A stretch of DNA of 64,000 nt, taken from Chitinophaga vietnamensis. GTDB taxonomy: Bacteria > Bacteroidota > Bacteroidia > Chitinophagales > Chitinophagaceae. Every line of letters begins with the position of its first letter. Position 1 is the first letter of the stretch. Positions 6,305 to 27,470 of this stretch are shown in pieces. Both the position numbers and the translations under genes were made by a program. The DNA lies in NCBI RefSeq assembly GCF_902167635.1, contig NZ_CABHMS010000002.1, positions 682,001-746,000 of the forward strand, in the 5' to 3' direction. Under the pieces are notes generated by a model. The model worked only from the letters and a program-made list of their open reading frames with translations. It was not told the origin of the DNA and did no database searches.

Positions 6305-7228
6305 ATGGCACAAATAAACTGGCAAGGCGTATTTCCTGCATTGCTGACACCTTTTACCAATGATGATCGTATCGATTATGATCTGTTCGACAAAAACTTG
6401 CAGGCACAGGAAGCTGCCGGCGTGAATGGTATTATCCTTGGCGGATCGCTGGGAGAGGCCAGCAGTTTACAGAACGACGAAAAGTATGCACTGGTGCGTC
6501 ACGCGGTGAGCCGCCTGGATGGCCGCATCCCGGTGATCATGAACATCGCCGAGCAAACTACCAGCGCCGCTATCGAAGTAGCGCAGGAAGGCAAGAAGGC
6601 CGGCGCCGCCGGACTGATGCTGCTGCCGCCCATGCGCTACAAAGCGGATGATGCAGAAACAGTAGCCTACTTCCTTGCGGTAGCCAAAGCCGTAGATCTG
6701 CCCATCCTCATCTACAACAACCCGGTAGATTACAAGATCATGGTAACCCTGGAGATGTTTGAACAGCTTGCCGCTGCGCCCAATATCCAGGCCGTGAAAG
6801 AATCCACCCGCGATACCACCAATGTGATCCGCATGACCAATCGCTTCGGCGACCGTTTCAAGATACTCTGCGGCGTAGATACGTTAGCGTTAGAGAGCCT
6901 GGCGATCGGCGCCCATGGCTGGGTAGCAGGACTGGTAGACGCCTTCCCGCGTGAGACCGTAGCCATCTACCGTCTCGCGAAAGCAGGCCGCATCGCAGAA
7001 GCGCTGACCATCTACCGCTGGTTCATGCCACTGCTCGAACTCGATATCCATCCCAAGCTGGTACAATACATCAAACTGGCTGCTACTGCCACCGGCATCG
7101 GCAGCACGCATGTACGTGCGCCGCGCCTGCCGCTGCAAGGCAGCGAGCTGGCCAGCGTACAGGCTATCATCGATCGTGCACTGGCGGCAAGACCAGTGTT
7201 ACCCGAATATCTAAACCTGCCTTCATGA
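6305..7228 (+). CDS. DapA-family lyase, probable 1-pyrroline-4-hydroxy-2-carboxylate deaminase
   Basis: The 307-residue protein is a class I aldolase-like TIM barrel of the DapA/NanA family. The Schiff-base lysine is in AVKESTRD, the conserved Tyr in LIYNNP, and GGSLGEASS replaces the GTTGE loop of true DapA. The loop change and the genomic position argue against lysine synthesis. In bacterial trans-4-hydroxyproline breakdown, a DapA-like enzyme (LhpC/HypD type) deaminates and dehydrates pyrroline-4-hydroxy-2-carboxylate to 2-oxoglutarate semialdehyde, and the next three genes encode the other steps. The start is the ATG at 6305, downstream of a TAnnTTTG motif. The stop overlaps the next start (ATGA). 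The family call is certain; the substrate is inferred from context. Confidence 0.85.
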   Translation: MAQINWQGVFPALLTPFTNDDRIDYDLFDKNLQAQEAAGVNGIILGGSLGEASSLQNDEKYALVRHAVSRLDGRIPVIMNIAEQTTSAAIEVAQEGKKAGAAGLMLLPPMRYKADDAETVAYFLAVAKAVDLPILIYNNPVDYKIMVTLEMFEQLAAAPNIQAVKESTRDTTNVIRMTNRFGDRFKILCGVDTLALESLAIGAHGWVAGLVDAFPRETVAIYRLAKAGRIAEALTIYRWFMPLLELDIHPKLVQYIKLAATATGIGSTHVRAPRLPLQGSELASVQAIIDRALAARPVLPEYLNLPS

Positions 7229-8811
7229 GTATTACCGGACAAAATATTATCGGTTACCAATATGCCGCAACAGGCAGTGAACAATTACGTGCATACGATC
7301 CCGTTAGTAACACACAACTGCCCGAGGCCTTTTCCATTGCCACTTCCGAAGAAGTGAACCTGGCGGTGGAAAAGGCCGCGCAGGCATTTCCGGCTTACAG
7401 CGCCACTACGCCGGAGCAGCGGGCTGTATTCCTGGAAACGATCGCATCAGAGATCATGGCCATCGGAGAGCCGCTGCTGCAAAGGGCTGTAGCGGAATCA
7501 GGATTGCCGCTGGCGCGCATCACCGGCGAGCGAGGGCGCACTACCGGCCAGCTGCAACTCTTCGCCAGCGTGCTGCGCGAAGGGTCGTGGGTAGATGCCG
7601 TGATAGATACCGCGCTACCACAAAGAGAACCACTACCGCGACCGGATATACGAAAAATGCTGGTACCCTTAGGGCCTGTGCTGGTATTCCCCGCAAGCAA
7701 TTTCCCGCTGGCCTTTTCCACTGCCGGCGGCGATACCGCCTCCGCGCTGGCAGCCGGCAACCCTGTGATCGTGAAAGCGCACGAGTCGCATCCCGGCACC
7801 AATGAGCTGATCGCAAAAGCGATCCGCAATGCCGCTGAGAAATGCGGCATGCCCGACGGCGTATTTTCCAGCATCAATGGCAAAGGGCCTGTTACCGGTC
7901 AGCAGCTGGTGAAACATCCGGGTATCAAAGCGATCGGATTCACCGGCTCTTATAAAGCCGGCATGGCTATCTTCGATGCGGTGAACCAACGCGCAGCGCC
8001 CGTACCGGTGTATGCCGAGATGGGCAGCATCAATCCTGTATTGCTGCTTCCCGCCAAACTGGCCACTGCGGCCGAACAGCTGGCAGGCCAGTTAGCGGCG
8101 TCTGTTACACTGGGTACCGGGCAGTTCTGTACCAATCCTGGTCTCCTCATCGCATTGGACAATACCGACACGGAAACGTTTGCGCAACATCTGCAAACGC
8201 AGCTCTCAAACACTGCGGCAGGTACCATGCTCAATCCGGGCGTCTGTTATCACTATTATGAGAACAGGTCGCAGCTCTCCCGCAAAACGGGTGTGGAAAC
8301 ATTGCTCAGCGGCGAGAAGCTCGTGGCGCAAACGAAAGGCTCTGCCGCCCTGTACCGCGTGAGTGGGCGCCATTTCCTGGCTGATCCCGAAATGCAACAG
8401 GAAGTATTCGGGCCTGCCACCTTGCTGGTAGTATGCCGCGATGCTACAGAACTGAACGCCGTATTGCAGTCCCTGCACGGACAGCTCACCGGCACGATCA
8501 TGGCAGAAGCTGCCGATCTGCAAGCGTTCGCACCAGCCCTTGGGTTGCTCGCCGAAAAAGTAGGCAGGATCATTTACAATAATGTGCCTACCGGCGTGGA
8601 GGTATCGTATGCGATGCACCATGGCGGCCCCTTCCCGGCCACTACGGATGTACGCAGCACCTCGGTGGGCGCAGCGGCCATCCTCCGTTTTGTACGGCCG
8701 CGTTGTTATCAGAACTGGCCCGAAACCTTGCTGCCAGCGGCTTTGCAGGATAGCAACCCGCTGGGCATATGGCGGAGGGTTAACGGTCAGCTTAGCCGGG
8801 AGAGCATTTAG
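7225..8811 (+). CDS. Aldehyde dehydrogenase (NADP+), probable 2-oxoglutarate semialdehyde (2,5-dioxopentanoate) dehydrogenase
   Basis: The 528-residue protein has the ALDH catalytic cysteine C302 in GTGQFCTNPG, the general base E265 in YAEMGSINPV, the KAHESHPGT cofactor-site block and the GFTGSYKAG turn. The length and the FCTNPG signature fit the type III alpha-ketoglutarate semialdehyde dehydrogenases, which prefer NADP+ and perform the last step of hydroxyproline, glucarate and arabinose oxidation. The start overlaps the stop of the deaminase gene by 4 bp, so the two are probably translationally coupled. The product, 2-oxoglutarate, enters the TCA cycle. Confidence 0.9.
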   Translation: MSITGQNIIGYQYAATGSEQLRAYDPVSNTQLPEAFSIATSEEVNLAVEKAAQAFPAYSATTPEQRAVFLETIASEIMAIGEPLLQRAVAESGLPLARITGERGRTTGQLQLFASVLREGSWVDAVIDTALPQREPLPRPDIRKMLVPLGPVLVFPASNFPLAFSTAGGDTASALAAGNPVIVKAHESHPGTNELIAKAIRNAAEKCGMPDGVFSSINGKGPVTGQQLVKHPGIKAIGFTGSYKAGMAIFDAVNQRAAPVPVYAEMGSINPVLLLPAKLATAAEQLAGQLAASVTLGTGQFCTNPGLLIALDNTDTETFAQHLQTQLSNTAAGTMLNPGVCYHYYENRSQLSRKTGVETLLSGEKLVAQTKGSAALYRVSGRHFLADPEMQQEVFGPATLLVVCRDATELNAVLQSLHGQLTGTIMAEAADLQAFAPALGLLAEKVGRIIYNNVPTGVEVSYAMHHGGPFPATTDVRSTSVGAAAILRFVRPRCYQNWPETLLPAALQDSNPLGIWRRVNGQLSRESI

Positions 8812-8858
8812 TTATTTGATGATTTTATTATTGGGTTATTTAATTATTTTCTGGGGAG

Positions 8859-9860
8859 ATGTCAACCAAAACATTCTTTTGTATAGATGCCCACACTTGC
8901 GGCAACCCCGTACGGCTTGTTGCCGGCGGGGGCCCTGTGCTGGTGGGCAATACCATGATGGAGAAACGTTTGCACTTTTTACGGGAGTACGACTGGATCC
9001 GCAAGGGGCTGATGTTTGAGCCGAGAGGTCATGATATGATGAGCGGCAGCATTCTCTATCCGCCCTGCGATCCTGCAAACGATACCGGCGTGCTGTACAT
9101 CGAAACCAGCGGCTGCCTGCCTATGTGCGGCCATGGTACTATTGGTACGGTTACTATCGCTATCGAACAGGGGCTGGTGATACCGAAAGTGCCCGGCCAG
9201 CTGCGGCTGGAAACGCCGGCAGGACTGGTGCTCGTGAGCTATGTACAGGAAGGGCAGAAAGTGAAATCGGTGAAGCTCACCAACGTAAAATCATTCCTCG
9301 CTGCCGAAAACCTGGAAGTGGAATGCCCAGGCCTCGGTATCCTGCATGTGGATGTGGCCTATGGGGGCAACTTCTACGCCATCGTAGATCCACAGCCCAA
9401 TTTCGCAGGACTGGAGCACTTCACCGCCGATCAGCTGATCTCCTTTAGCCGCATATGCCGTCAACGGCTAAACGAAAAATATACATTCGTACATCCCGAA
9501 AATGAGCACATCAAGGGATTGAGTCATATGCTGTGGACCGGCGCCACGATTAGTCCGCATGCCACTGCACGCAATGCCGTATTTTATGGCGACAAAGCCA
9601 TCGACCGCTCGCCTTGCGGTACCGGCACTTCCGCGCGCATGGCGCAATGGCATGCCAAAGGAAAGCTCCGCAAAGGCGACACCTTTATACATGAAAGTAT
9701 CATCGGATCAGTATTCAACGGCACCATCGAAGAAGAGACCACTATTGCCGGCAAACCCGCCATCATCCCCGGTATTGAAGGATGGGCAAAAGTAACCGGC
9801 TATAATACCATCTTCCTGGACGATGACGATCCTTATGTGCATGGCTTCCAGGTGATCTGA
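8859..9860 (+). CDS. 4-hydroxyproline 2-epimerase (proline racemase family)
   Basis: This 333-residue protein has both catalytic cysteines of the family: C90 in MCGHGTIG and C253 in SPCGTGTSAR. Two cysteines distinguish epimerases/racemases from trans-3-hydroxyproline dehydratases, in which one position is Thr. It should convert trans-4-hydroxy-L-proline to cis-4-hydroxy-D-proline, the first step of the pathway encoded by this operon. A GGGGAG stretch sits directly before the ATG. Such a purine-rich site is unusual for this phylum, where Shine-Dalgarno motifs are weak. The gene is 47 bp downstream of the dehydrogenase. Proline racemase activity is the alternative but does not fit the neighbours. 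Confidence 0.92.
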   Translation: MSTKTFFCIDAHTCGNPVRLVAGGGPVLVGNTMMEKRLHFLREYDWIRKGLMFEPRGHDMMSGSILYPPCDPANDTGVLYIETSGCLPMCGHGTIGTVTIAIEQGLVIPKVPGQLRLETPAGLVLVSYVQEGQKVKSVKLTNVKSFLAAENLEVECPGLGILHVDVAYGGNFYAIVDPQPNFAGLEHFTADQLISFSRICRQRLNEKYTFVHPENEHIKGLSHMLWTGATISPHATARNAVFYGDKAIDRSPCGTGTSARMAQWHAKGKLRKGDTFIHESIIGSVFNGTIEEETTIAGKPAIIPGIEGWAKVTGYNTIFLDDDDPYVHGFQVI

Positions 9861-9887
9861 GCCCTGCACATCTCACAAAAAAATAAC

Positions 9888-11135
9888 ATGAAAGCAATCA
9901 TCATCGGAGGAGGTATCATAGGATTATGCACTGCCCACTACCTGCGCGACAGCGGGTGGGAGGTAACGGTCATGGATAAACGTGATTTCAGGGATAACTG
10001 TTCTTACGGCAATCTGGGCATGATCGTGCCCAGTCACTTTGTGCCGCTGGCGGCGCCGGGCATCGTATCACAGGGCATCCGCTGGATGTTCAGCAGCAAA
10101 AGCCCTTTCTATGTAAAACCGGCCCTGAACAAAGACCTGGTGTCCTGGGGCCTGCAATTTATAAAACACGCCAAAGCGAATCATGTGGCGGCATCAGCAA
10201 TCCCCTTGCGGGATATCAACCTCCTGAGCCGTCAGCTCTATGATGAGCTGGCACAGCAGCCCGGCTTTGATTTCGGTTTGCAACACAAGGGTATCATCAT
10301 GTACTATAAAACGGCGGCTGTGCAGGAAGAAGAAGCGCACCTGGCGGAACAGGCGCGCGCCATGGGCCTCGATGCCGCTGTGCTGGATAAAGCCGCCATA
10401 CAAGCGCTGGAACCGCAATTGCAGCTTGATGTGTTAGGTGGCGTGCACTATCGCTGTGATGCCCATCTCTATCCCAATCAACTCATGCAACAACTGTTAT
10501 CATCCCTCAAAAATAAAGGTGTTCATTTCCTGCCACACACAGAGGTTACGCAAGTGGAAACCACGCAGGGGAAGGTCACTGCTGTTATCAGCGGCGACCA
10601 ACGCTATGATGCAGATATGTTCGTGATGGCCGGCGGCTCCTGGGCCCCGGCGCTGGCGCGGCTTGCAGGCGAACGCCTGTTGCTGATGCCGGGCAAAGGT
10701 TACTCTGTTACTTTGGATGCGCCATCTGTCAATCTCAATATCCCCGCAATCCTTTGCGAAGCCAGGGTGGCGCTTACGCCGATGCGCGATAAACTGCGTT
10801 TCGGCGGTACGATGGAAGTAGCCGCAGTGAACGACCAGGTGAACATGAACAGGGTAGCGGGTATCGTGGAATCGGTGCAGCGTTATTTCGGTAACCTGCC
10901 TGTTCACATGCCGAAAAAAGAAGACGTATGGTTCGGGTTCCGTCCCTGCTCACCAGATGGATTACCATTCATTGGATTTTCAAAACGATACCGTAATTTG
11001 CTGCTCGCCGGCGGCCACTCCATGATGGGCCTCAGCCTGGGACCCGCCACCGGCAAGCTGTTGACGCAACTGGCCAACGGAGAGGAAACAAGTATGGATA
11101 TTTCGCCTTTCAGTCCGCAACGCAACGGCGCTTAA
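9888..11135 (+). CDS. FAD-dependent D-amino-acid oxidoreductase, probable cis-4-hydroxy-D-proline dehydrogenase
   Basis: The 415-residue protein starts with a Rossmann FAD motif (IIGGGIIGLCTAHYL) and ends with the GGHSMMGLSLGPATG block typical of DadA/glycine-oxidase-like flavoproteins. It should oxidise cis-4-hydroxy-D-proline to 1-pyrroline-4-hydroxy-2-carboxylate, between the epimerase and deaminase steps. It is a single-subunit type, unlike the three-subunit Pseudomonas dehydrogenases. It sits 27 bp after the epimerase and only 24 bp before the ECF sigma gene, suggesting that catabolic and regulatory genes share a transcript. The electron acceptor is unknown. Confidence 0.85.
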   Translation: MKAIIIGGGIIGLCTAHYLRDSGWEVTVMDKRDFRDNCSYGNLGMIVPSHFVPLAAPGIVSQGIRWMFSSKSPFYVKPALNKDLVSWGLQFIKHAKANHVAASAIPLRDINLLSRQLYDELAQQPGFDFGLQHKGIIMYYKTAAVQEEEAHLAEQARAMGLDAAVLDKAAIQALEPQLQLDVLGGVHYRCDAHLYPNQLMQQLLSSLKNKGVHFLPHTEVTQVETTQGKVTAVISGDQRYDADMFVMAGGSWAPALARLAGERLLLMPGKGYSVTLDAPSVNLNIPAILCEARVALTPMRDKLRFGGTMEVAAVNDQVNMNRVAGIVESVQRYFGNLPVHMPKKEDVWFGFRPCSPDGLPFIGFSKRYRNLLLAGGHSMMGLSLGPATGKLLTQLANGEETSMDISPFSPQRNGA

Positions 11136-11159
11136 TTGATCAACGCAAAATCACAGCGA

Positions 11160-11786
11160 ATGCTAAAAGCCAACAGCTACCCGGCTACAAACAGTGACAA
11201 GGAATGTGAACAGGCGTTTGCCGGTTTCTGGCATGAAATGCAGCAGAACAATGAACAGGGCTTATACAAGATCTATCATGAGATCTATGATAATCTCTAT
11301 CATTACGGTGTGGCTGTTGTGCTGGACAAGTCGATGGTAAAGGAAGCCATCAACGATATTTTTGTAGAGATATGGCAGAAGCGCCACCAGCTGGATATGC
11401 CGGGCAATATCAAAGGTTATCTCTTCATCTGCTTCAAACGCAGGCTGTACAAGATACTCAGCAAAGCGCATAAAGAAGCCCTGCGCGAAGACAGTTTGCT
11501 CTTCCGCGAACCAGAGGAAAGCCCATACGAAGAAGTGCTGATCCGCCAGGAAACCGACCATCAGGTAAAAGAAAAGCTCGAACGCATGCTAGGCCTGCTC
11601 ACTGCCCGCCAGCGGGAATTTATCAAACTACGTTTTTACGACAACCTGAGCATCGAAGAAATCGCCGCCCGCACCGACGCCACGCCGCGCACCATCTACA
11701 ACACCATCCACAACGCCCTGGTGCGCATCCGCGAAGTGTATACCGATGCTACACTCATCGGATTATTTTTACTCATGATTAAATGA
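11160..11786 (+). CDS. ECF RNA polymerase sigma factor (SusCD-associated type)
   Basis: The 208-residue protein has sigma-70 region 2 (about residues 25-100, with INDIFVEIWQKR) and region 4 with a helix-turn-helix (LTARQREFIKLRFYDNLSIEEIA). It is paired with the FecR-like gene downstream, as in Bacteroidota trans-envelope systems where a SusC receptor signals through FecR. I prefer the ATG at 11160; an in-frame TTG at 11136 adds eight residues. The last codons (about GLFLLMIK) lie inside a 67-bp inverted repeat arm, so the repeat element has supplied the C-terminus. It probably directs transcription of the downstream sus-like genes, and possibly of its own operon. Confidence 0.88.
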   Translation: MLKANSYPATNSDKECEQAFAGFWHEMQQNNEQGLYKIYHEIYDNLYHYGVAVVLDKSMVKEAINDIFVEIWQKRHQLDMPGNIKGYLFICFKRRLYKILSKAHKEALREDSLLFREPEESPYEEVLIRQETDHQVKEKLERMLGLLTARQREFIKLRFYDNLSIEEIAARTDATPRTIYNTIHNALVRIREVYTDATLIGLFLLMIK

Positions 11787-11925
11787 TTAGAAGGATTAGC
11801 AGGATTTTTTTTACAGGATTTTAAAGGATTCGGGGAGATCAACCCGAAATGATCTTCGCGAATCCTTTAAAATCCTGTAAAAAAAATCCTGCTAATCCTT
11901 CTAATCATTTAATCATGAGTAAAAA
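11766..11925. repeat. Perfect 67-bp inverted repeat overlapping the sigma gene 3-prime end
   Basis: The left arm at 11766-11832 and right arm at 11859-11925 are perfectly complementary, with a 26-bp spacer. The left arm contains the last codons and stop of the ECF sigma gene. The arms contain GGATTAGCAGGATT and CAGGATTTTAAAGGATT units, related to those of the composite elements at 33360 and 58754. The RNA would form a very stable hairpin between the sigma gene and the FecR gene, likely terminating or attenuating transcription. Confidence 0.9.
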
Positions 11926-11977
11926 AATCTCCATAATCCTTGGTAAAAATCCTCCGGCTTCTCCCTCTTTATAGAAA

Positions 11978-13027
11978 ATGCCCGGTATGGACCTACAGCA
12001 GTATAAGGCGGAAGACTTTATCCTCAACGATTCTTTTGTGCGTTATTGCCTGCGCAGTAACGATTCTGATGTGCAGTTCTGGGAAAGCTGGCTACAGCGC
12101 TACCCGCATAAGCGTGAGGAGGCGGAGAAGGCCCGTGAATGGCTGTTCCGGCTGGGTTTGAAGCTTACGCCTGAAGAGAAAGAAGCGGAATTTGGCAAGT
12201 TGCAGCTGGCTATTGCGGCTGCTAATGACACAACCGCGCCGGCGCAGGAGCGGCCATCGCCGGCGGCGCGCCGCTACTGGCGTATAGCGGCGGCTGTGTT
12301 GTTGCCGCTGGCGGCAATAGCCTGGTGGATGAAAGCCGGGCAGCATAAGCCGGTAATAGCGGACAATAACGCTAACGCCTATACGGTATATGTAGCGGGC
12401 GACAGCGCCCGCCGCCCCCTGGTGCTGGCCGATGGCAGCCGGGTGATCCTCAACCGCCACAGCACCCTCCGCGTACCGGAAAACTATAACAAAGGCAGCC
12501 GCCACCTCGAACTGCAAGGAGAAGCCCTCTTTGAAGTGGCCCCCGCTCCTGAACAACCCTTCACTGTAAGTAGTCAGGGCGCGGAAGTACGCGCCCTCGG
12601 TACCGCCTTCAAAGTGCGCGCCTATGGCTTCGATACCGCCATGGCCGTATCCCTGCTGGAAGGACGTGTACGCGTAGCCGTTAGATCATCCGCCACCGAA
12701 CTGCAACCCGGCGAGCAGGTGCTGCTCAAAGCAGATGCCTCCCTGTTTGATAAACATGGTTTTGATATGGCCCGCGAAGCCGCCTGGCGCAAAGGTTTGC
12801 TCGCCTTCAACAATGCATCCATCCGGGAAATTACCGAACAACTGCAATACTGGTACGGGATCAAAGTGCAACTGATGCCCGGAAAATATAAACCGATACG
12901 CTTCAATGGCGCCTTCCGGAATAAGCCGCTCAACGAGGTACTGGCAGCCATCTGCTTTGTGAACGGACTAACATCCACCATTAAAAATGATACGTTACTG
13001 ATATCTCCTGCCAGCGCGTCACACTAG
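11978..13027 (+). CDS. FecR-type anti-sigma factor
   Basis: The 349-residue inner-membrane protein has a cytoplasmic N-terminal sigma-binding region (about 1-90), one transmembrane helix (WRIAAAVLLPLAAIAWW, near residue 95-112), a periplasmic FecR domain (LADGSRVILN ... GEALFEVAP ... ALGTAFKVRAY) and a C-terminal DUF4974-like domain that contacts the receptor plug/STN domain. It should hold the ECF sigma factor until SusC senses its ligand. The start is ATG 11978, and an alternative ATG lies three codons later. The gene is separated from its sigma gene by the 160-bp hairpin element rather than being tightly coupled. Confidence 0.9.
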   Translation: MPGMDLQQYKAEDFILNDSFVRYCLRSNDSDVQFWESWLQRYPHKREEAEKAREWLFRLGLKLTPEEKEAEFGKLQLAIAAANDTTAPAQERPSPAARRYWRIAAAVLLPLAAIAWWMKAGQHKPVIADNNANAYTVYVAGDSARRPLVLADGSRVILNRHSTLRVPENYNKGSRHLELQGEALFEVAPAPEQPFTVSSQGAEVRALGTAFKVRAYGFDTAMAVSLLEGRVRVAVRSSATELQPGEQVLLKADASLFDKHGFDMAREAAWRKGLLAFNNASIREITEQLQYWYGIKVQLMPGKYKPIRFNGAFRNKPLNEVLAAICFVNGLTSTIKNDTLLISPASASH

Positions 13028-13063
13028 CCGGAGCTTACTATACCATTACAACCAAAATACGTT

Positions 13064-16000
13064 ATGACTAAAACTTCCATTCAACGGGCGTGCATAGGCA
13101 TGCTCCTGTGGCTGATGCTGCTTAGCTGGGTGCAAGCGGCCGAAGGCCTGAAAGACAAGATCGACGTAGGTTTCAGGCAAACAAAGGTATTGCAGGTATT
13201 ACAATACCTCGAAAAAAATACCCGGCTGAAATTCTCTTATAATCTCGACGATCTCGAAAAATTAAAACCGCTGACGCTCGATAAAAAAGAACGTACAGTG
13301 GAAGGCCTGCTCCATGAGATCAGCCATGTTACTGCTTTAGAGTTCAAAGTAACAGATGATATCATCCTCGTGAAAGTAGGGAACAATAACAGCGTAGTAA
13401 AGAATGACGCTGCCCCGCAGCAACAGCCGCCGGTAAAAGGAAAGATCACTTCCAATACCGGCGAGGCATTGCCCGGAGTTAGCGTCAGGCTGAAAGGCAC
13501 GACCAAAGGCGTACTCACAGATGTGAAGGGCGCCTTTGAACTGCGCGATCTGCCCCCAGGCGCCGTGCTGGAAATATCCTTCATCGGTTACGAAAGCGCG
13601 GAAGTGCCGGTAAATGGCCAGCAGGAACTGACCATCACCCTCAATACCTCTACGAAAGTGCTCGACCAGGTAGTAGTAGTGGGCTATGGCACCCAAAGCA
13701 AACGTAATGTCAGCAGCGCCATCACTTCCGTAAAAGGCAGCGAGATTGCAAACGTTCCCACCAATAACCCCGTTAATGCCCTGCAAGGTAAAGTGGCCGG
13801 TTTGACCGTAGTGAATACCGGCGGCGCTCCCGGCAACATGGCCGATATCAAACTGCGCGGCATCAGCACCTATGGCTCACACCAGCCGCTGTTCATCATC
13901 GATGGCAGCCCCGGCGATCCCTATTATCTCAACAACAACGATATTGCTTCTATTGAAGTGCTCAAAGATGGCGCAGCCGCTTCTATCTATGGCTCCCTCA
14001 GCGCTAACGGCGTGATCCTCGTCACCACCAAGAAAGGAAAGAAAGGCCCGCCAAAACTGGAATTTAACGGCTACTACAGCATCGTGAATCCTACGGGTAA
14101 AATGCATCTTCTTGATGCCGACGGCTATCTCAAAGTGCATCGCATGATGTATGATAATGCCGGTATCCCCGACGATCGCAAGCCCGCCTATCTCTCCAAA
14201 GGCGTTACCGCCAATACCAACTGGCAGGACGAGATCACACAACAGGCCACTGCACAGAATTATAGCTTGAGCCTCACCGGCGGCGGCGATTACTTCAACT
14301 ATGGCCTCAGCGGCAACATCACCCGCGAAACCGGTACCTTCATCGGCACCGATTTTAAAAAGAAATCCATCCGCTCCCGCAACGAATACAAGAAAGGACG
14401 TTTGACTGCTGAAGTGAACCTCGTGTACGCTGAAACAGATCGCAGTGACCTGAACTACAGCACCAAAGATGCTTACTTCCAGTCGCCATTGCTGCCGGTT
14501 TACGACAAGAACGAAAAGTACGGCTATGCTTTACAGATCAACCAGCTGCCGAAATATGAAAATGCACTGGCCATGAATCACTACATGAGCAATTCCAATC
14601 GCGCGCAGTACTTCAGCGGAAACGCCCGCCTGTCGCTGGAGTTGATCAAAGGCATGAAATTCGTGACCAACCTTGGGCTGGTAAGCACCAACTTCCTCAA
14701 CTATGCTTATCACCCGCCATTCCGCGGCAATGCCAACGATCCGCTGATACCTTATGCACAACTCACCGATGGCCGCTCCAACGACCGCCAACGTTTGATG
14801 GAGAACCTGTTGTATTACGATCGCAGCTTTGGTAAGCATAGCATCAACCTGCTCGCAGGTTATACGGCACAGGAGATATCCAGTAATAACATCACTACCA
14901 TTGCAGATGGCAAGACCACCGTATATACTGTGGTAGACGGACAGATATCACCCAATATCCTGCCCGGCGGATTCCTGGATCCCGGCTTCAGCACCATGAA
15001 TGGCGCAGCCGGCGGCTCTTTCAGCGCTACCGGTACCCGTCCGCAATATGACCGTTTGTCTACATTAGGGCGTATCAACTACGCCTATGACGGTAAATAT
15101 CTTTTGCAGGTATCCGTGCGCCGCGATGGTTCTTCCAAGTTTGGTGAAAACCGCCGCTATGGCGTGTTTCCGTCCGTATCAGTGGGTTGGAACCTGCAAA
15201 GCGAATCTTTCATGCAAAGGTATGCATGGCTGAATCTCCTGAAGCTGCGCGCCAGCTATGGCGAGCTGGGTAATGAAAATGCGCTCGGTGAATATGATCA
15301 CCAGGCTTTGATGACAATCTCCAACCGCCGCGGTGGTGGCTATGTACAGGGGAGTGGCGCCGCCGCCTGGCCGGGAGCCGCTGCCTGGGAGCTGAAAAAT
15401 AAAGACCTGCGATGGGAGACCAGCATCTCCAAAAATATCGGCTTCGATTTTGGCGTGCTCAATAAACTCACTGGTTCCTTTAACTTCTTCAACAATGTTA
15501 CCAGAGACCTGCTGATCCGGAAAGAACTGGCTGCCAGCGCAGGTTTGAATAATCCCGTGATGAACGTAGGCCGCATCGGCAACAAAGGCTGGGAACTGGA
15601 ACTGACCTGGGCAGATAAAAAGAAAGACTGGAATTATAGTATAACCGGTACCCTTAGTCAGGTGAAAAATAAAGTGCTCGCCCTTGCCAACGAAAACCAG
15701 AAACTTGCCGGCACCGGCCTGAAATACGGCACTGGCCCCGTTCCCAACATGACGGTAGTAGGCAGCGAGATCGGCGCCTTCTATCTCTATGAGGCAGATG
15801 GCATCTTCCAATCCGATGCTGAAGTAGCCGCCTATAAAAACAAGAAAGGGGACCTCCTGCAACCCGATGCCAAAGCCGGCGATATCCGCTTCCGCGATAC
15901 CAATGGCGACGGCGTGATCGATGAAAACGACAAAACCTACCAGGGTAGCGGCTTTCCGAAAGTGGAGTATGGCTTCAACTTCACCCTTGGTTACAAAGGT

Positions 16001-16450
16001 TTCGATCTGCAATTATTCTGGCAGGGCGTAGGCGGCAACAAGATCTTCAACGGCAATAAATACGAGCTGCAAGGCATGGATGCCGGCCGTAACTTCGATG
16101 TAAGCACCCTCAACGCCTGGACGCCGCAGAACAGGAACACCGATGTGCCCCGTGCTGTGCTGGGAGATCCGAACAACAACAACCGCGAATCTACGCGCTT
16201 CCTCGAAAGAGGCGATTACCTCCGCCTGAAAACCTTACAGCTGGGTTATGCTTTCTCCACCTCGCTGCTGCAACGCGCGAAGATATCACGCTTACGCATA
16301 TACGTAAGTGCGCAGAACCTGCTCACCTTTACGAAATATACTGGCCCCGACCCGGAGATCGGCCGCGCCGACGTGCTCAACACAGGCCTCGACCGCTGGA
16401 TGTATCCACAGAACAAAACATTTATGACTGGCCTGCAACTGGAGTTCTAA
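13064..16450 (+). CDS. SusC/RagA-family TonB-dependent transporter with STN signalling domain
   Basis: This 1128-residue outer-membrane receptor carries a signal peptide (about 1-25), an N-terminal STN domain (about 30-105, with FRQTKVLQVLQYLEKNT), a carboxypeptidase-like beta domain (GKITSNTGEALPGVSV), a plug (VVVGYGTQSKRNVSSA ... RGISTYGSHQPLFIIDG) and a C-terminal beta-barrel ending in LQLEF. The STN domain is the part that contacts a FecR anti-sigma factor, so this is a transducing SusC that senses and imports a ligand. It lies 36 bp after fecR and 18 bp before susD. The cargo is not readable from sequence. From the neighbours, a collagen-type glycopeptide or glycosyl-hydroxylysine is my proposal. 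Confidence 0.95.
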   Translation: MTKTSIQRACIGMLLWLMLLSWVQAAEGLKDKIDVGFRQTKVLQVLQYLEKNTRLKFSYNLDDLEKLKPLTLDKKERTVEGLLHEISHVTALEFKVTDDIILVKVGNNNSVVKNDAAPQQQPPVKGKITSNTGEALPGVSVRLKGTTKGVLTDVKGAFELRDLPPGAVLEISFIGYESAEVPVNGQQELTITLNTSTKVLDQVVVVGYGTQSKRNVSSAITSVKGSEIANVPTNNPVNALQGKVAGLTVVNTGGAPGNMADIKLRGISTYGSHQPLFIIDGSPGDPYYLNNNDIASIEVLKDGAAASIYGSLSANGVILVTTKKGKKGPPKLEFNGYYSIVNPTGKMHLLDADGYLKVHRMMYDNAGIPDDRKPAYLSKGVTANTNWQDEITQQATAQNYSLSLTGGGDYFNYGLSGNITRETGTFIGTDFKKKSIRSRNEYKKGRLTAEVNLVYAETDRSDLNYSTKDAYFQSPLLPVYDKNEKYGYALQINQLPKYENALAMNHYMSNSNRAQYFSGNARLSLELIKGMKFVTNLGLVSTNFLNYAYHPPFRGNANDPLIPYAQLTDGRSNDRQRLMENLLYYDRSFGKHSINLLAGYTAQEISSNNITTIADGKTTVYTVVDGQISPNILPGGFLDPGFSTMNGAAGGSFSATGTRPQYDRLSTLGRINYAYDGKYLLQVSVRRDGSSKFGENRRYGVFPSVSVGWNLQSESFMQRYAWLNLLKLRASYGELGNENALGEYDHQALMTISNRRGGGYVQGSGAAAWPGAAAWELKNKDLRWETSISKNIGFDFGVLNKLTGSFNFFNNVTRDLLIRKELAASAGLNNPVMNVGRIGNKGWELELTWADKKKDWNYSITGTLSQVKNKVLALANENQKLAGTGLKYGTGPVPNMTVVGSEIGAFYLYEADGIFQSDAEVAAYKNKKGDLLQPDAKAGDIRFRDTNGDGVIDENDKTYQGSGFPKVEYGFNFTLGYKGFDLQLFWQGVGGNKIFNGNKYELQGMDAGRNFDVSTLNAWTPQNRNTDVPRAVLGDPNNNNRESTRFLERGDYLRLKTLQLGYAFSTSLLQRAKISRLRIYVSAQNLLTFTKYTGPDPEIGRADVLNTGLDRWMYPQNKTFMTGLQLEF

Positions 16451-16468
16451 CATTTTAATCATTCGGTT

Positions 16469-17998
16469 ATGAAAAAATATTTGCGCTATACATCTTTGCT
16501 GGGAGTGGCTGTTGGCATGCTGATGACTGCCAGCTGTAATAAAGATTTGCTGAACCAGGTGTCGCCCGACAAGCTCACTACCGACAACTACTGGACCTCG
16601 AAAGACCGCGCGCTCACCGGCCTGGCATCTGCCTACTCACAACTGGAGAGCTTCACCGGCTGGGATAACTACGTGGAAGCGCGCTCCTGTCGCGAGTTCT
16701 ACCGGGAAGATTATGTAATACCCGGCAGCGATGCCTATAACTATAGCTGGTGGATGGAGATCTATAACTTCAACTACAACTCCGGCAACTATGCTATCGA
16801 CTTGCTGTGGCGCGACAATTACCGTGGTATCAATTTCAGCAACCAGGTGCTCACGAATGTAGCGGCGATGACCACTGCACAGATCGACGATTCCAGCCGT
16901 AATGTGATCCTGGCGGAAGCCCACTTCCTGCGTGCTTACTACTATTTCAAGCTGCTGAATAATTTTGAGAAGGTGATCATCCGCGACAAAGTACCGGAAG
17001 GAGAAGCGGACCTGCCCAAGGCGCCGGCAACGCGCGCTGAAGTATGGGACTTTATCATCGCCGACCTCAAAGCCGCGGAGCCTATGCTGCCGCTGCGCAG
17101 CGCACGCCCCGGCGCTGAACTGGGCCGCGTTACCAAAGGCGCTGCACAAGCCTATCTCGGCAAAGTAATGATCTACCGCGCTTCAGAAGACAAGGCCAAC
17201 GCCACTGCCTTGTACACCGAAGCGGCCAGTTGGCTCGACAAAGTGATCAAATCCAACCAGTACTCGCTGGTGGATAACTACCTCGGCATGTTCAACGGCA
17301 CGCTCACTAATTCCAATGAATCGATCTTCGAGCTGCAACAAACCAATGATGAAAACAACGGCGCGTTCTACAAATCACAGTTGAGCGATTGGGTAGCAGC
17401 GTCTGAACTGGGCGGCTATGGCGAGATCTATGGCACGCCGCGCCTGCTCGCCGAAATGTTGAAAGAAGGCAGGACTGCCAAAGATGGGCTTTACGATCAT
17501 CGTGTATACAATACCGTATTTTTCCGCGATCCTTATTTTAATGATCCTGCGAATCCGCGTGTATACGGTAACGTATACGACTCTTTGTTCACCGGCAATA
17601 CCATCGCCTTCCGCAAATGGATACCTTCCAAGCTGGACCTGCTGGGCAATCCGGTAGCCATTAACGCGCCGTTGATGCGCCTCGCTGATGTGATGCTGCT
17701 TTATGCGGAAGCAGAAAACGCACTGGGCGCTAACGACCTGGCCATGGCGCAGATCAATGCAGTACGCGCCCGCGCCGCCATGCCGCCATTGAACCTCAGC
17801 GCTACCCCCGATGTATTTGCCGAAATTGTACACGAACGTACCATGGAGCTTACACTGGAATGCAGCCGCTTCTATGACCTTCGCCGCTGGGGCCTGCTGG
17901 CGCAGAACATGCAGGCGGCCGGCCGCCAGTTTTCAGCAGATAGAGGGTTCTATCCACTGCCATTGAAAGAAACACTGAACAACCCTTTAGCAAAATAA
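16469..17998 (+). CDS. SusD/RagB-family surface glycan-binding lipoprotein
   Basis: The 509-residue protein has a lipoprotein signal peptide with the acylated cysteine at C23 (MTASCNKD) and helical SusD/TPR-type repeats. The N-terminus (SPDKLTTDNYWTSKDRA) and C-terminus (LTLECSRFYDLRRWG) are both typical of the family. It caps the SusC barrel on the cell surface and delivers the ligand. It follows susC by 18 bp. The 31-bp palindrome directly behind its stop may lower expression of the downstream enzymes relative to the SusCD pair. Confidence 0.95.
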   Translation: MKKYLRYTSLLGVAVGMLMTASCNKDLLNQVSPDKLTTDNYWTSKDRALTGLASAYSQLESFTGWDNYVEARSCREFYREDYVIPGSDAYNYSWWMEIYNFNYNSGNYAIDLLWRDNYRGINFSNQVLTNVAAMTTAQIDDSSRNVILAEAHFLRAYYYFKLLNNFEKVIIRDKVPEGEADLPKAPATRAEVWDFIIADLKAAEPMLPLRSARPGAELGRVTKGAAQAYLGKVMIYRASEDKANATALYTEAASWLDKVIKSNQYSLVDNYLGMFNGTLTNSNESIFELQQTNDENNGAFYKSQLSDWVAASELGGYGEIYGTPRLLAEMLKEGRTAKDGLYDHRVYNTVFFRDPYFNDPANPRVYGNVYDSLFTGNTIAFRKWIPSKLDLLGNPVAINAPLMRLADVMLLYAEAENALGANDLAMAQINAVRARAAMPPLNLSATPDVFAEIVHERTMELTLECSRFYDLRRWGLLAQNMQAAGRQFSADRGFYPLPLKETLNNPLAK

Positions 17999-18006
17999 GG
18001 CCAGGA

Positions 18007-23127
<5,121 letters not shown>

Positions 23128-23144
23128 CATTGAATGTTTGATAT

Positions 23145-25439
23145 ATGGAGAAGCTATTTACTGTTGCAGAGATAGAATCGCTGGTAGCGCAGCATTACGG
23201 TATGACTGCTACCGCAAAGGAATTGGAAGGCTACGATGAAAGTAACTTCCTGCTGAAAGATGATCAAGGGCATGCTTACATCTGCAAGGTGGCCGGCCCC
23301 GGCCACGATCCTTATTTCCTGGATGCACAGGTAAAGATACTCGAACATCTTGCGGCCAGTAAGGTACAACAACAGGTGCAGCGCGTACTGCGTAACAAAG
23401 CCGCAGAGGCGCTTACATCCTTGCCCGGCCAGCATTACATGCGTATCCTCACCTGGCTCGAAGGCGAGCCATTGGTAACAGTAACGCATATACGCCCATT
23501 GCAGCAAAGCATCGGCGCTTTCCTCGGCAATATGGATCAGGCCCTGCAAACCTTTGCGCATCCGGCTATGCACCGTCACATCAGCTGGGATATCTCGCAG
23601 GCGCTCGAAGCCAGGCAACATTTAATGCATATCAAAGACCCGGAGAAGAAACGCCTCGCCGCCTACTTCCTGCTGCAATTTGAAACAGAAGTAGCGCCAG
23701 CGCTGCCTTTCCTCCGCAAGGCTTATATCCATAACGACGCCAATGATTACAATATACTCGTGCAGGGACAGCAGATCGCCGGCCTGATCGATTTCGGCGA
23801 TATGGTGCATACCGCCCTGATTAACAACCTCGCTATCGCCTGCACTTACCTGATGCTCGATGCGGCCGATCCGCTGGAAGCCGCCACCGCCGCGGTAGCG
23901 GGCTATCATGCCAGTTATGCGCTGACCCCGCAGGAAACAGACCTGCTGTACTATCTCATCGCAGCACGTTTATGCATCAGCGTTAGTACCTCGGCCAAAC
24001 ATGCGGCCAACAACAGTAACAACGACTTTCACTTCATCACCGAAAAAGCCGCCTGGAAACTGTTGTTCAAGCTCATCACCATTAACCCCATCGCCGCGCA
24101 GGACGCATTCCGCCAGGCATGCGGGTTCCCGTCTCTCATCCGCCAGGAAGAAAATTACCAGCACCTGCTCACGGAACGAAAAGCCCATGTAGGCCGCAAC
24201 CTCAGCATCAGCTACAAGGCGCCGCTGAAGATCGTGAAAGGCGCCCTGCAATATCTCTACGATGATAAAGGCCGTACTTTCATCGACTGTGTGAACAATC
24301 CCAGTCATGTAGGCCACTGTCATCCCGATGTGGTAAAAGCCATGCAGCAGCAGATCGCGCGGCTCAATACCAATACCCGCTACCTGCATGATAACCTTGT
24401 GGAATACGCAGCCCTGCTCACTTCCACGCTGCCGTCCTCTTTGCAGGTATGCTATTTTACCAATTCCGGCAGCGAGGCCAACGACCTCGCTATCCGCATG
24501 AGCCGCCACTATACGCGCCAGCAGGATGTGATCGTACTGGATCATGCCTATCACGGCACTTCCACTGTAGCGATGGAATTAAGTCCTTATAAATTCGATG
24601 GTAAAGGCGGCTTCGGCAAGCCGCCGCATACGCATAAAGCGCTCAATCCTGATATGTACCGCGGCCCTTACCGCTATGATGATCCGGCCGCAGGCAGCAA
24701 ATACGCTGCTGATGTACAGGCCATCATCAAAGGTTTGCAGGCATCCGGCAAAGGCCTTGCTGCTTATATCTGCGAAACTTTGCTGGGCGTAGGCGGACAA
24801 ATACCCTTACCTCCCGGCTACCTCAAAGAAGTGTATGCCGCCGTGCGCGCGGCCGGTGGCGTATGTATCGCCGATGAAGTGCAGGTAGGTTTCGGAAGGG
24901 TAGGCGATGCCTTCTGGGGATTTGAATTGCAGGAAGTAACGCCCGATATCGTGGTGCTCGGCAAACCTATTGGTAACGGGCATCCGCTGGCGGCGGTAGT
25001 CACTACCAATGCTATCGCCGATGCTTTCAATAATGGCATGGAATACTTCAATACTTTCGGTGGTAACCCCGTATCTATGGCCACCGGCCTCGCCGTACTG
25101 AAAGTGATCCGCGACGAAGGCATGCAGGAACACGCACGCGTTACCGGCAATTACTTCATGGAAGGGCTCGAAAAGCTCAAGGCTAAACATGCCATCATCG
25201 GCGATGTTCGCGGTCATGGCCTGTTCATCGGGGCCGAGCTGGTACGCAATCGCGAAACCCTCGAACCTGCCGTGCCTGAAATCGACCAGATCGTAGAAGC
25301 CATGAAAGCCCGCGGCTTCCTCCTCAGCACTGACGGCCCGCTGCACAACGTACTGAAAATAAAACCGCCATTGGTATTTAATAAAATCAACACCGATGAT
25401 CTGCTCTTCCATCTCGATGAGGTGCTAAGCGCGATGTAA
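23145..25439 (+). CDS. Fused APH-type kinase and class III PLP phospho-lyase, candidate hydroxylysine kinase/5-phosphohydroxylysine phospho-lyase
   Basis: This 764-residue protein joins two enzymes. Residues about 1-330 form an aminoglycoside-phosphotransferase-like kinase with the catalytic loop [11 protein letters not shown] (H196, D198, N200) and the metal-binding D216 in LIDFGDM. Its blocks align by eye with human hydroxylysine kinase. Residues about 345-764 form a class III aminotransferase-fold enzyme ([41 protein letters not shown]) with PLP lysine K607 in [10 protein letters not shown]. These blocks closely match the AGXT2L phospho-lyases for phosphoethanolamine and 5-phosphohydroxylysine. 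Together the halves would phosphorylate an amino alcohol, then eliminate phosphate and ammonia to an aldehyde. Hydroxylysine is favoured by the nearby hydroxyproline operon; ethanolamine is the main alternative. There is no signal peptide, so it is cytoplasmic. It starts 18 bp after the GH63 gene. Confidence 0.88.
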
Positions 25440-25451
25440 TGTGGATTTTCA

Positions 25452-25501
25452 ATAAGGCTGATTTTATTTATGCCCCCGGGCATAAATAAAATCAGCCTTA
25501 T
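25452..25501. terminator. 24-bp-arm hairpin ending the catabolic operon
   Basis: Perfect arms ATAAGGCTGATTTTATTTATGCCC and complement surround a 2-bp centre (CC). The hairpin follows the fusion gene stop by 12 bp. Its right end overlaps the candidate rpiA -7 element, so termination and rpiA initiation share sequence. Confidence 0.75.
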
Positions 25502-25510: not shown

Positions 25511-26188
25511 ATGCAAATCAATCCAGCAAAAAAAGCCGCTGCCGAGAAAGCAGTCACTTTCATTCAGCCAGGCATGACCATCGGCCTGGGAACCGGCAGC
25601 ACGGCCTATTACGCCATTCTTCGTATAGGCGAACTCGTTAGAGAAGGCATGCCGCTGCGGGCAGTCGCCACTTCTGTGCAATCGGAAGACCTCGCACGTG
25701 AACAGGGCATCCCCCTGATAGATTTCGCCGCTGTTGACAAGCTGGATATTGACATTGATGGGGCGGATGAGGCAGATGCACAACTGCAACTGATCAAAGG
25801 CGGTGGTGGCGCATTGTTAAGAGAGAAGATCATTGCGGCCGCTTCCAGTCAGATGATCGTGGTGATCGATGAAAGCAAATTGGTAAAGCAGCTGGGGCAT
25901 TTCCCGTTGCCGGTAGAGATCATCCCCTTTGCCTGGGAACTGACCTTCAAAAAACTGCAAACCCTGAAAGCCGCACCTGTACTGCGTAAGAAGGATGGGC
26001 AACTGTTCGTCACCGACAATGGCAACTATATCGCTGATTGTCATTTCGGGCAAATAGCGGATGCAAGTAGTTTGCATGCGCAGCTAAACGATATCCCTGG
26101 CGTGGTAGAGAATGGCCTGTTCATCGGCTATGCGAGCCGTATCATCATTGGCTGTGATAATGGAGCGCTGAAGGAGATCAGCCGCTAG
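25511..26188 (+). CDS. rpiA: Ribose-5-phosphate isomerase A
   Basis: The 225-residue protein carries the RpiA signatures GLGTGSTAYYAI (phosphate loop), DIDGADEAD and LIKGGGGALLREKI, which hold the catalytic Asp, Glu and Lys residues. It interconverts ribose 5-phosphate and ribulose 5-phosphate in the pentose phosphate pathway. Length is normal for the family. The stop overlaps the stop region of the convergent transporter gene by 11 bp. It appears metabolically independent of the preceding locus. Confidence 0.95.
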   Translation: MQINPAKKAAAEKAVTFIQPGMTIGLGTGSTAYYAILRIGELVREGMPLRAVATSVQSEDLAREQGIPLIDFAAVDKLDIDIDGADEADAQLQLIKGGGGALLREKIIAAASSQMIVVIDESKLVKQLGHFPLPVEIIPFAWELTFKKLQTLKAAPVLRKKDGQLFVTDNGNYIADCHFGQIADASSLHAQLNDIPGVVENGLFIGYASRIIIGCDNGALKEISR

Positions 26189-27470
26189 TTTCATCTTTAT
26201 CGAGATAGGAACTATGTTTGGTATCTCTTGAAAAAATATATACCAGCAAAGAGATAAAGATGCACAGCGTCACATACCAGTAATACCAGGGCTCATGGCC
26301 TATTTTCTTGCAATATAGCGCGATGGGTTCGGCCGTGCCGCCGAAGAGCGCCACCGTTACTGCATAGGGGAAGCCCACACCCAGCGCCCGCACTTCAGCA
26401 GGGAACATTTCCGCTTTTACCACCGCATTGATAGACGTATAGCCGCTGACGATCACCAGCGCTGAGAGGATGAGCCAGAAGGCCGTCCATTCCGAACTTG
26501 TTTGACTGATAGCCGTAAGTACAGGCACGGTGAGCAAGGTGCCGAATATGCCGAAGCCGATCAGCAGCGGCTTGCGGCCCCAGGAGTCCGATAGCCAGCC
26601 GAACAGGGGTTGCAGGCAGGCATAGATAAGCAGGAGGAAGAAAGTGAGGGTGGTGGCGCGCTCTATGCTGAGGTGCACTGTATTCACCAGGAATTTTTGC
26701 ATGTAGGTAGTGTAGGTATAAAAGGCCAATGTGCCGCCCATTGTGAGGCCTACAACGGTCATCACCGCGCGTGGGTGCTGTTGGAAGAGCGCTTTGAGCG
26801 AGCCGCGTTCGCGGGTTTTTTTCTCTTGTTCAAAGGCTTGCGATTCCTGCATATTGCGGCGCAGGTATAATACGAAGAATGCCAGCAAAGCCCCGATCAC
26901 AAAGGGGATGCGCCATCCCCAGTCGTGCAGTTGCGCCGGCGTGAGAAATACTTTTTGCAGCAACATTTGTACGCCGAGGGCCACCAGCTGGCCACCGATC
27001 AGCGTTACGTACTGGAAGCTGGAATAGAAGCCGCGGAGGCCGGATGTGGCTACTTCGCTGAGGTAGGTGGCGGAGGTGCCGTATTCGCCGCCTACGCTGA
27101 GGCCTTGCAGCAGGCGCGCCAGCAGCAGGAGCGCCGGGGCCATCACACCGATGCTGGCATGCGAAGGCGTGAAAGCGATGAGCACCGAGCCGAAAGACAT
27201 GAGCAGTACCGACAGCGTCATGGCGGCTTTACGCCCGCTGCGGTCCGCGATGCGGCCAAACATCCATCCGCCGATAGGCCGCATCAGGAAGCCCACCGCG
27301 AAAATAGCCGCTGTATTGAGCAATTGCGCAGTGTAATTTCCTTTGGGAAAAAATACCGGCGCAAAATATAATGAGAAAGTAGTGTAGATATACCAGTCGT
27401 ACCATTCTACCAGGTTACCCGCAGAACCCGTAAGGATGGCTTTAATGCGCCAGGACTCAGGATGTTTCAT
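26178..27470 (-). CDS. kgtP: MFS metabolite:H+ symporter, KgtP-like 2-oxoglutarate permease
   Basis: The 430-residue membrane protein has about twelve transmembrane segments and the MHS-family signature GNLVEWYDWYIY at the N-terminus. RPIGGWMFGRIADRSGRK follows, and then RLLQGLSVGGEYGTSATYLSE. Conserved blocks match E. coli KgtP (2-oxoglutarate:H+ symporter) from end to end by eye, including KAEMFPAEVRALGVG. Related members transport proline/betaine or shikimate, so the substrate is likely but not certain. Since hydroxyproline breakdown yields 2-oxoglutarate, a C5 or C6 dicarboxylate carrier nearby is notable. The gene overlaps rpiA tail to tail by 11 bp. Confidence 0.85.
   Translation of the reverse strand: MKHPESWRIKAILTGSAGNLVEWYDWYIYTTFSLYFAPVFFPKGNYTAQLLNTAAIFAVGFLMRPIGGWMFGRIADRSGRKAAMTLSVLLMSFGSVLIAFTPSHASIGVMAPALLLLARLLQGLSVGGEYGTSATYLSEVATSGLRGFYSSFQYVTLIGGQLVALGVQMLLQKVFLTPAQLHDWGWRIPFVIGALLAFFVLYLRRNMQESQAFEQEKKTRERGSLKALFQQHPRAVMTVVGLTMGGTLAFYTYTTYMQKFLVNTVHLSIERATTLTFFLLLIYACLQPLFGWLSDSWGRKPLLIGFGIFGTLLTVPVLTAISQTSSEWTAFWLILSALVIVSGYTSINAVVKAEMFPAEVRALGVGFPYAVTVALFGGTAEPIALYCKKIGHEPWYYWYVTLCIFISLLVYIFSRDTKHSSYLDKDETSG

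Follow-up and report, generated by a model that had tools for sequence, protein, structure and literature searches.

What is the substrate of a gene array in which a trans-4-hydroxyproline operon runs straight into a sugar-uptake system, two glycosidases and a kinase/phospho-lyase fusion? The array lies in a 64,000-nt stretch of Chitinophaga vietnamensis DNA (GCF_902167635.1, NZ_CABHMS010000002.1, 682,001-746,000, forward strand), called the window below, and all coordinates are window-relative. In collagen, the most abundant protein of animals, hydroxylysine (Hyl) bears Glc-Gal (glucosyl-galactose). The locus probably serves the utilisation of collagen-type glycosyl-hydroxylysine (Glc-alpha-1,2-Gal-beta-O-Hyl, free or in short peptides), joined in the window lineage to the hydroxyproline operon. 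Substrate specificities, cellular locations and induction are throughout predictions drawn from sequence.

The genes that an earlier note on this DNA had named were all found by open reading frame (ORF) and profile search on the + strand, in the order given there, within 6305-25439. The array consists of the hydroxyproline operon (6305-11135), an extracytoplasmic function (ECF) sigma factor, FecR, SusC, SusD, an enzyme of glycoside hydrolase family 2 (GH2), one of family 63 (GH63) and the fusion.

The fusion and its neighbours in relatives

The fusion (23145-25439, + strand) combines an APH-family kinase (PF01636, amino acids ~28-255) with a class-III pyridoxal phosphate (PLP) phospho-lyase (PF00202, amino acids ~360-760), and its APH-family half is a candidate hydroxylysine kinase. 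Residues K607, D198, N203 and D216 were invariant in 25 aligned sequences. A solved-structure search with the kinase half alone gave no informative relative. Against the PRK06148 fusion model NF004799, which at 1015 positions is longer than the fusion, the score was 997 bits, below the cut-off of 1128. The fusion was found in 25 of 244 family genomes and matched in 24 genomes of a 395-genome phylum sample, at full length in 11 and by the lyase half only in 13. In other Bacteroidota families the lyase half was seen to match within proteins of ~1000 amino acids (11 genomes, ORFs of 1012-1042 amino acids), close to the length of the PRK06148 model.

Genome contigs were scanned for the fusion, giving 479 relatives, and counts were made on the best 80 loci with up to 10 kb of flank, neighbours being scored by bit-score cut-offs set by us. 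Since 37 of the 80 loci were extended upstream, the neighbour counts are lower bounds. The synteny that the earlier note proposed to look for in other Bacteroidota was present: the order SusC-SusD-GH2-GH63-fusion recurs in Chitinophaga, Pedobacter and Niabella, and the gene order is therefore above chance. In Flavobacterium the common order is SusC-SusD-GH63-GH42-fusion. A beta-galactosidase was present in 55 of the 80 loci (GH2 in 38, GH42 in 17, both together in 0) and an alpha-glucosidase in 46 (GH63 in 45, GH31 in 1), the two activities standing together in 45. SusC with SusD was also found in 45 loci, 41 of which had both kinds of glycosidase.

The glycosyl-hydroxylysine half of the earlier proposal is well supported by the genes that stand beside the fusion elsewhere, namely HglS, L-piperidine-6-carboxylate (P6C) dehydrogenase, a D-2-hydroxyglutarate-dehydrogenase-like gene and Leloir galactose genes, and also by glycosidase swaps, GH42 standing in for GH2 and, in one case, GH31 for GH63. 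HglS, a 2-oxoadipate dioxygenase/decarboxylase, matched PF07063 and the P6C dehydrogenase matched NF050084 (838 bits, cut-off 730), one example of each being profiled; the third neighbour is nearest the D-2-hydroxyglutarate dehydrogenase YdiJ, at 577 bits well under the cut-off of 1350. Of 51 genomes searched, 39 bear HglS, and in 22 of these it lay no more than 15 kb from the fusion (0.25 linked copies expected); P6C dehydrogenase was linked in this way in 14 of the 51. The expectation given here and the epimerase co-occurrence probability given below assume independent genomes, an assumption that relatives break. The YdiJ-like gene was present in 9 of the 80 loci, and at least one of the three genes in 29. 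According to an excerpt of PMC7286885, the published HglS enzyme has a His/His/Glu metal triad and a substrate arginine (His70, Arg74). H45, R49, H178 and E250 were kept in 24 of 24 HglS copies, one of them the unlinked copy of the window genome; the spacing of H45/R49 equals that of the published His70/Arg74, and H178 and E250 were assigned by order to the second His and the Glu, with no direct alignment.

HglS, P6C dehydrogenase and the YdiJ-like enzyme, with one aminotransferase, could take 2-aminoadipate semialdehyde to 2-oxoglutarate. The F. segetis array reads galM-like-galK-galT-galE-symporter-TPR protein-HglS-P6C dehydrogenase-SusC-SusD-GH63-GH42-fusion-YdiJ-like; galE, galT and galK were above equivalog cut-offs, galM was named by eye and the symporter is a sodium symporter. 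Galactose and hydroxylysine would be two of the products for such a set to handle. In the window genome, one HglS and one P6C dehydrogenase (at the set thresholds) lie next to each other on a different contig, together with a saccharopine-dehydrogenase-like gene, and a YdiJ-like gene of the same genome was 61% identical to the Flavobacterium one. Because these three genes are present there, the window genome plausibly encodes the lower pathway save the aminotransferase, for which no gene was identified.

In the route that we propose, SusC/SusD would import the substrate across the outer membrane, and in the periplasm GH63 would take off glucose and GH2 galactose. Hydroxylysine would then enter via some transporter; an inner-membrane hydroxylysine carrier was not found. 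The fusion would phosphorylate hydroxylysine and then release phosphate and ammonia from it, leaving 2-aminoadipate semialdehyde (in its piperideine-6-carboxylate form), which P6C dehydrogenase, an aminotransferase, HglS and D-2-hydroxyglutarate dehydrogenase would carry to 2-oxoglutarate. The upstream operon would turn hydroxyproline into that same end product.

Two side observations were made on the fusion scan. A second type of Flavobacterium fusion (L080, L081, L092) had no SusCD or glycosidases near it, and F. gillisiae has both types (L050, L080). Two loci from metagenome-assembled genomes labelled Limnohabitans and Alphaproteobacteria (L083, L107) grouped with Bacteroidota in the fusion tree, L107 on a long branch, and these contigs are probably misbinned. 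The tree was a quick one with midpoint root, from which one short fusion was left out.

Glycosidases

The GH2 LacZ-type beta-galactosidase (18084-21194, + strand; PF02836, PF02929) carries an N-terminal signal-like sequence by eye and scored 973 bits against NF052611, slightly under the cut-off of 999. Residues E466 and E529, which we take to be the two catalytic Glu motifs, were kept in both homologues aligned (three sequences in all). The GH63 YgjK-type alpha-glucosidase (21187-23127, + strand) was identified by profile and structure match; its ORF starts at 21088, and the probable start is 21187, in an 8-bp overlap with the GH2 stop. Its D425 and E616 were invariant in 23 aligned sequences and align with YgjK, in which their counterparts are presumably the catalytic Asp and Glu. 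The product of the YgjK glycosynthase is reportedly Glc-alpha-1,2-Gal, and cleavage of Glc-alpha-1,2-Gal is the predicted specificity of the window GH63.

The hydroxyproline operon and its junction with the glycan block

The operon comprises, all on the + strand, a DHDPS/NAL-family enzyme (6305-7228, ATG at 6305; PF00701, E 6.7e-59), an aldehyde dehydrogenase (7225-8811; PF00171, nearest solved structures 3v4c/1eyy), a 4-hydroxyproline epimerase (8859-9860; equivalog NF010578, 598 bits against a cut-off of 376) and an enzyme of the FAD-dependent D-amino-acid dehydrogenase type (9888-11135; PF01266). The epimerase was the only one of the four to pass an NCBIfam equivalog cut-off. The other three belong to the right superfamilies by Pfam and reached no cut-off among the matches listed, the aldehyde dehydrogenase and the FAD dehydrogenase scoring under NCBIfam cut-offs there. 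From family and operon, the first enzyme is probably the 1-pyrroline-4-hydroxy-2-carboxylate deaminase (a role suggested by the operon), the second probably the 2-oxoglutarate-semialdehyde dehydrogenase and the last probably the D-hydroxyproline dehydrogenase.

The gap of 24 bp that had been reported between the two halves is exact (11136-11159, from the dehydrogenase stop to the first ATG of the sigma factor). A 23-bp perfect hairpin (25452-25501, + strand; -33.8 kcal/mol, z -9.8), AT-rich and with almost no T-run, stands directly 3' of the fusion stop and is the probable transcript end. The terminator scan found no + strand terminator-like site within the gap and no + strand stem of 23-bp length inside the array; it returned 39 sites in total against 23 expected in shuffles, so single small terminator sites carry little weight. 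Given the short gap, the end hairpin and the lack of an internal stem of that length, the whole array looks like a single transcription unit. A strict Bacteroidota promoter motif had two matches in the window and none in the locus region, and an Rfam search gave no match.

The origin of the junction was read from close relatives. Five sister Chitinophaga genomes carry M90-M28-(a gene of ~900 amino acids)-hydroxyproline operon-rpiA-MFS and no glycan block; four relatives carry M90-M28-sigma-FecR-SusC...fusion-rpiA-MFS; and both halves are joined in the window and in C. niastensis, where the available stretch ended short of M28. Against C. eiseniae Ak56 (L168), continuous similarity ends at window position 11123 and resumes at 25496, with a few short low-scoring matches inside the gap. 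The glycan block of ~14 kb is thus an insert between the hydroxyproline operon and rpiA in the window lineage. The window fusion is sister to the other five of its group in the fusion tree. In the simplest history, the block would have inserted behind the hydroxyproline operon, and the four relatives would later have lost that operon.

Weighing of the readings

Several observations speak against a common collagen programme or against the glycoside reading itself. Of the 40 genomes that bear the 4-hydroxyproline epimerase (51 searched), only 3 had it at most 30 kb from the fusion, two of these from the window lineage, and general co-inheritance of the hydroxyproline and fusion genes was rejected, the epimerase being present in 12 of 25 fusion-bearing and 105 of 219 other family genomes (p=1). 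The four relatives with the glycan block at the same site have no hydroxyproline operon. The P6C dehydrogenase and HglS of the window genome lie outside the locus. At the set thresholds, 22 of the 80 loci lacked glycosidases, a SusC-SusD pair and lysine-pathway genes alike, with 8 of the 22 on stretches shorter than 15 kb, and five further loci of the family sample (L034-L038), annotated outside the 80-locus counts, show no glycosidase. The GH63 type was absent at E<=1e-60 from 18 of the 25 fusion-bearing family genomes. Among solved structures, the lyase comes closest to an enzyme whose name refers to ethanolamine phosphate. A search for peptidase M9 collagenase gave no match in the genome, the control of the same search having matched nowhere; three M43 matches above cut-off were recorded beside this check.

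The joint collagen locus that the earlier note put forward therefore stands in part. The halves are joined in the window as it said, but the arrangement is not general, and because of the epimerase linkage and the absence of family co-occurrence the joint locus is regarded as lineage-specific. Fusion homologues without hydroxyproline genes, which the note had named, together with action on ethanolamine only, as breaking the collagen link, do occur, and this too makes the joint locus lineage-specific.

The strongest alternative accepts the hydroxylysine-glycoside locus as real and takes its position behind the hydroxyproline operon as an insertion accident, with no shared control and no joint collagen programme. 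It draws on the same rare linkage and missing co-occurrence, on the block being found without the operon at this site in four close relatives, and on the five sister genomes that have the operon beside rpiA without the block. On the other side, the halves share a strand and are separated by 24 bp with no + strand terminator-like site between them, the join has been retained in the window and in C. niastensis, and a comparable set occurs in Flavobacterium sp. ZT3R18. There, ~40 kb of one contig hold a hydroxyproline operon, genes for aminopeptidase P and for two M43 peptidases that bear secretion-sorting tails, and a DPP-IV-like gene. The opposite strand then carries GH63-GH42-fusion, accompanied by a racemase-family gene that comes nearest to trans-3-hydroxyproline dehydratase but falls below the cut-off, and by a pyrroline-2-carboxylate reductase that scores above its own. 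The hydroxyproline operon, aminopeptidase P, the M43 pair and the fusion set together span ~38 kb. The Chitinophaga loci L129, L130 and L139 have the same upstream gene pair (M43, aminopeptidase P layout), with M43 confirmed by Pfam in L129 and L139 and aminopeptidase P in L129; in L083 the neighbours of the fusion include DPP-IV, a prolidase-type M24 and galactose-type genes. A peptide link therefore recurs, in differing forms. We regard the accident as possible, though clearly the less probable account.

In three Flavobacterium hydroxyproline loci (L177, L178, L179), the hydroxyproline genes were seen to adjoin aminopeptidase P and a SusC-like receptor. In L178 these are joined by a SusD-like_2 lipoprotein, by an M43 peptidase carrying fn3 domains and a sorting tail, and by a second set of P2C-reductase-like, racemase-family and prolidase-type M24 genes. 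This looks like a separate collagen-peptide locus.

It is improbable that the sugar half serves a plant or microbial alpha-Glc/beta-Gal oligosaccharide with the fusion as a passenger. LacZ-type GH2 enzymes and SusCD pairs are generic, GH2 occurs without GH63 in Flavihumibacter L052, L074 and L093 (within the stretch examined), and two of the nine family genomes (of 244) with this GH63 type have no fusion. The other seven do have it, however, with the two matches 15-30 bp apart (Fisher p 1.6e-6), GH2 and GH42 replace each other around a constant fusion, and this account leaves the fusion unexplained.

Least likely of all, the fusion would act on ethanolamine, as a kinase and then an ethanolamine-phosphate phospho-lyase, in a locus for some other amino-alcohol glycoconjugate: the nearest solved relatives of the lyase are the human ethanolamine-phosphate phospho-lyase 6tor (482 bits) and the phospholyase 5g4i, but the HglS, P6C dehydrogenase and YdiJ-like neighbours suit the C6 aldehyde that hydroxylysine would yield and would serve no purpose in the metabolism of acetaldehyde, and no ethanolamine gene was seen among the annotated neighbours, many single neighbours having never been annotated. 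Sequence gives no discrimination between the two substrates and gene context favours hydroxylysine; ethanolamine was rejected on this context, because HglS and P6C dehydrogenase would stay unexplained.

For the collagen reading as a whole, the evidence tips moderately towards a system for collagen O-glycans that would be spread patchily across the Bacteroidota. It would take in Glc-Gal-hydroxylysine through a dedicated SusCD pair and lead it to 2-oxoglutarate, and in one Chitinophaga lineage it would have been merged with hydroxyproline catabolism into one collagen-responsive operon.

Regulators, uptake genes and other features of the window

The ECF sigma factor (11160-11786, + strand) was assigned by profile match, the ORF list giving an upstream TTG start at 11136, and is followed on the same strand by the FecR anti-sigma factor (11978-13027; PF04773, PF16344), the SusC-type TonB-dependent transporter (13064-16450; PF07715, PF13715) and the SusD-type surface lipoprotein (16469-17998; PF07980, PF14322). 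SusC adjoins SusD, and GH2 and GH63 lie in the same cluster and are conserved in relatives, as in SusCD utilisation loci. The transporter has an N-terminal extension of ~90 amino acids, STN-like by eye. The extension is real as judged by SusC lengths in relatives, but Pfam STN was absent at E<=1e-3. Sigma factor, FecR and extended SusC would together form a surface-signalling switch.

Among the 35 relatives with an examinable SusC (L125-L162 range), the protein measured 1126-1140 amino acids in 13 loci with FecR directly upstream and 1026-1070 in 22 without. In the latter 22, the gene directly upstream encoded 535-590 amino acids in 15, P6C dehydrogenase in four and a 218-amino-acid ORF in three; in L134 and L157 a gene upstream has TPR repeats by Pfam. 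The type of switch thus varies between lineages and the enzymes are constant.

Downstream, rpiA (25511-26188, + strand; NF001924/TIGR00021 above cut-off) is a boundary marker outside the pathway and adjoins the hydroxyproline operon in the five sister genomes. It is followed by a KgtP-like MFS symporter (26178-27470, - strand; NF007710, 526 bits, under the cut-off of 550), part of the ancestral neighbourhood. Elsewhere in the window were found a HEAT-repeat protein that also has two 3-keto-disaccharide hydrolase domains (69-3452), CCG and LUD-domain genes resembling a lactate-utilisation set (33707-36390), an exopolysaccharide/O-antigen type cluster (37239-58753), in which a scan of some of the ORFs showed Wzz, a flippase-type protein, a Wzy_C ligase domain and UDP-glucose dehydrogenase and which is closed by a SprB-repeat type IX secreted protein, and a terpene synthase of family 2 (61261-62235).

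Comparison with known systems

No bacterial locus for collagen hydroxylysine glycans was found in the openly licensed literature, subscription papers being mostly outside the search. Taken singly, SusCD loci, hydroxyproline operons, the kinase/phospho-lyase pair of mammals and their GH65 enzyme PGGHG are all known; the combination of such parts is unreported in the literature searched. Once defined, a bacterial route would account for the way in which Bacteroidota could draw on the Glc-Gal-hydroxylysine fraction of collagen, would name enzymes for the laboratory removal of collagen glycans, and would give a likely function to fusions whose nearest NCBIfam model (PRK06148, whose cut-off lies above the score obtained here) is labelled hypothetical. 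It ties a sugar-uptake system to an amino-acid pathway and, if true, would be a bacterial route for hydroxylysine carbon.

The mammalian hydroxylysine route consists of hydroxylysine kinase and 5-phosphohydroxylysine phospho-lyase (Veiga-da-Cunha 2012, as cited in an excerpt of PMC8154272). The predicted chemistry of the fusion, kinase plus class-III PLP phospho-lyase, is alike, whereas in the bacterium both are fused into one polypeptide and set in a sugar-uptake operon. In mammals, the glucosidase for Glc-Gal-Hyl is PGGHG, a GH65 enzyme, according to an excerpt of PMC8626586; in the window locus GH63, and in one relative GH31, would take that role. E. coli YgjK (GH63; PDB 3w7s, 3w7x, 5gw7) is of the same family as the window enzyme and is its best solved match (294 bits), but is distant from it, with long gaps between the matched stretches. 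Bacterial trans-4-hydroxyproline operons share the epimerase, the D-hydroxyproline dehydrogenase type, the DHDPS-type deaminase and the semialdehyde dehydrogenase; the operon of the window, like that of C. niastensis, differs from them in continuing straight into a SusCD glycan locus. With the SusCD polysaccharide utilisation loci of Bacteroidota, the window locus has in common the SusC/SusD pair, the neighbouring glycoside hydrolases and the ECF-sigma/FecR signalling; it differs in being predicted to act on a glycosylated amino acid where those loci take polysaccharides, and in carrying an enzyme predicted to act on the aglycone amino acid, to which some relatives add the greater part of its degradation route.

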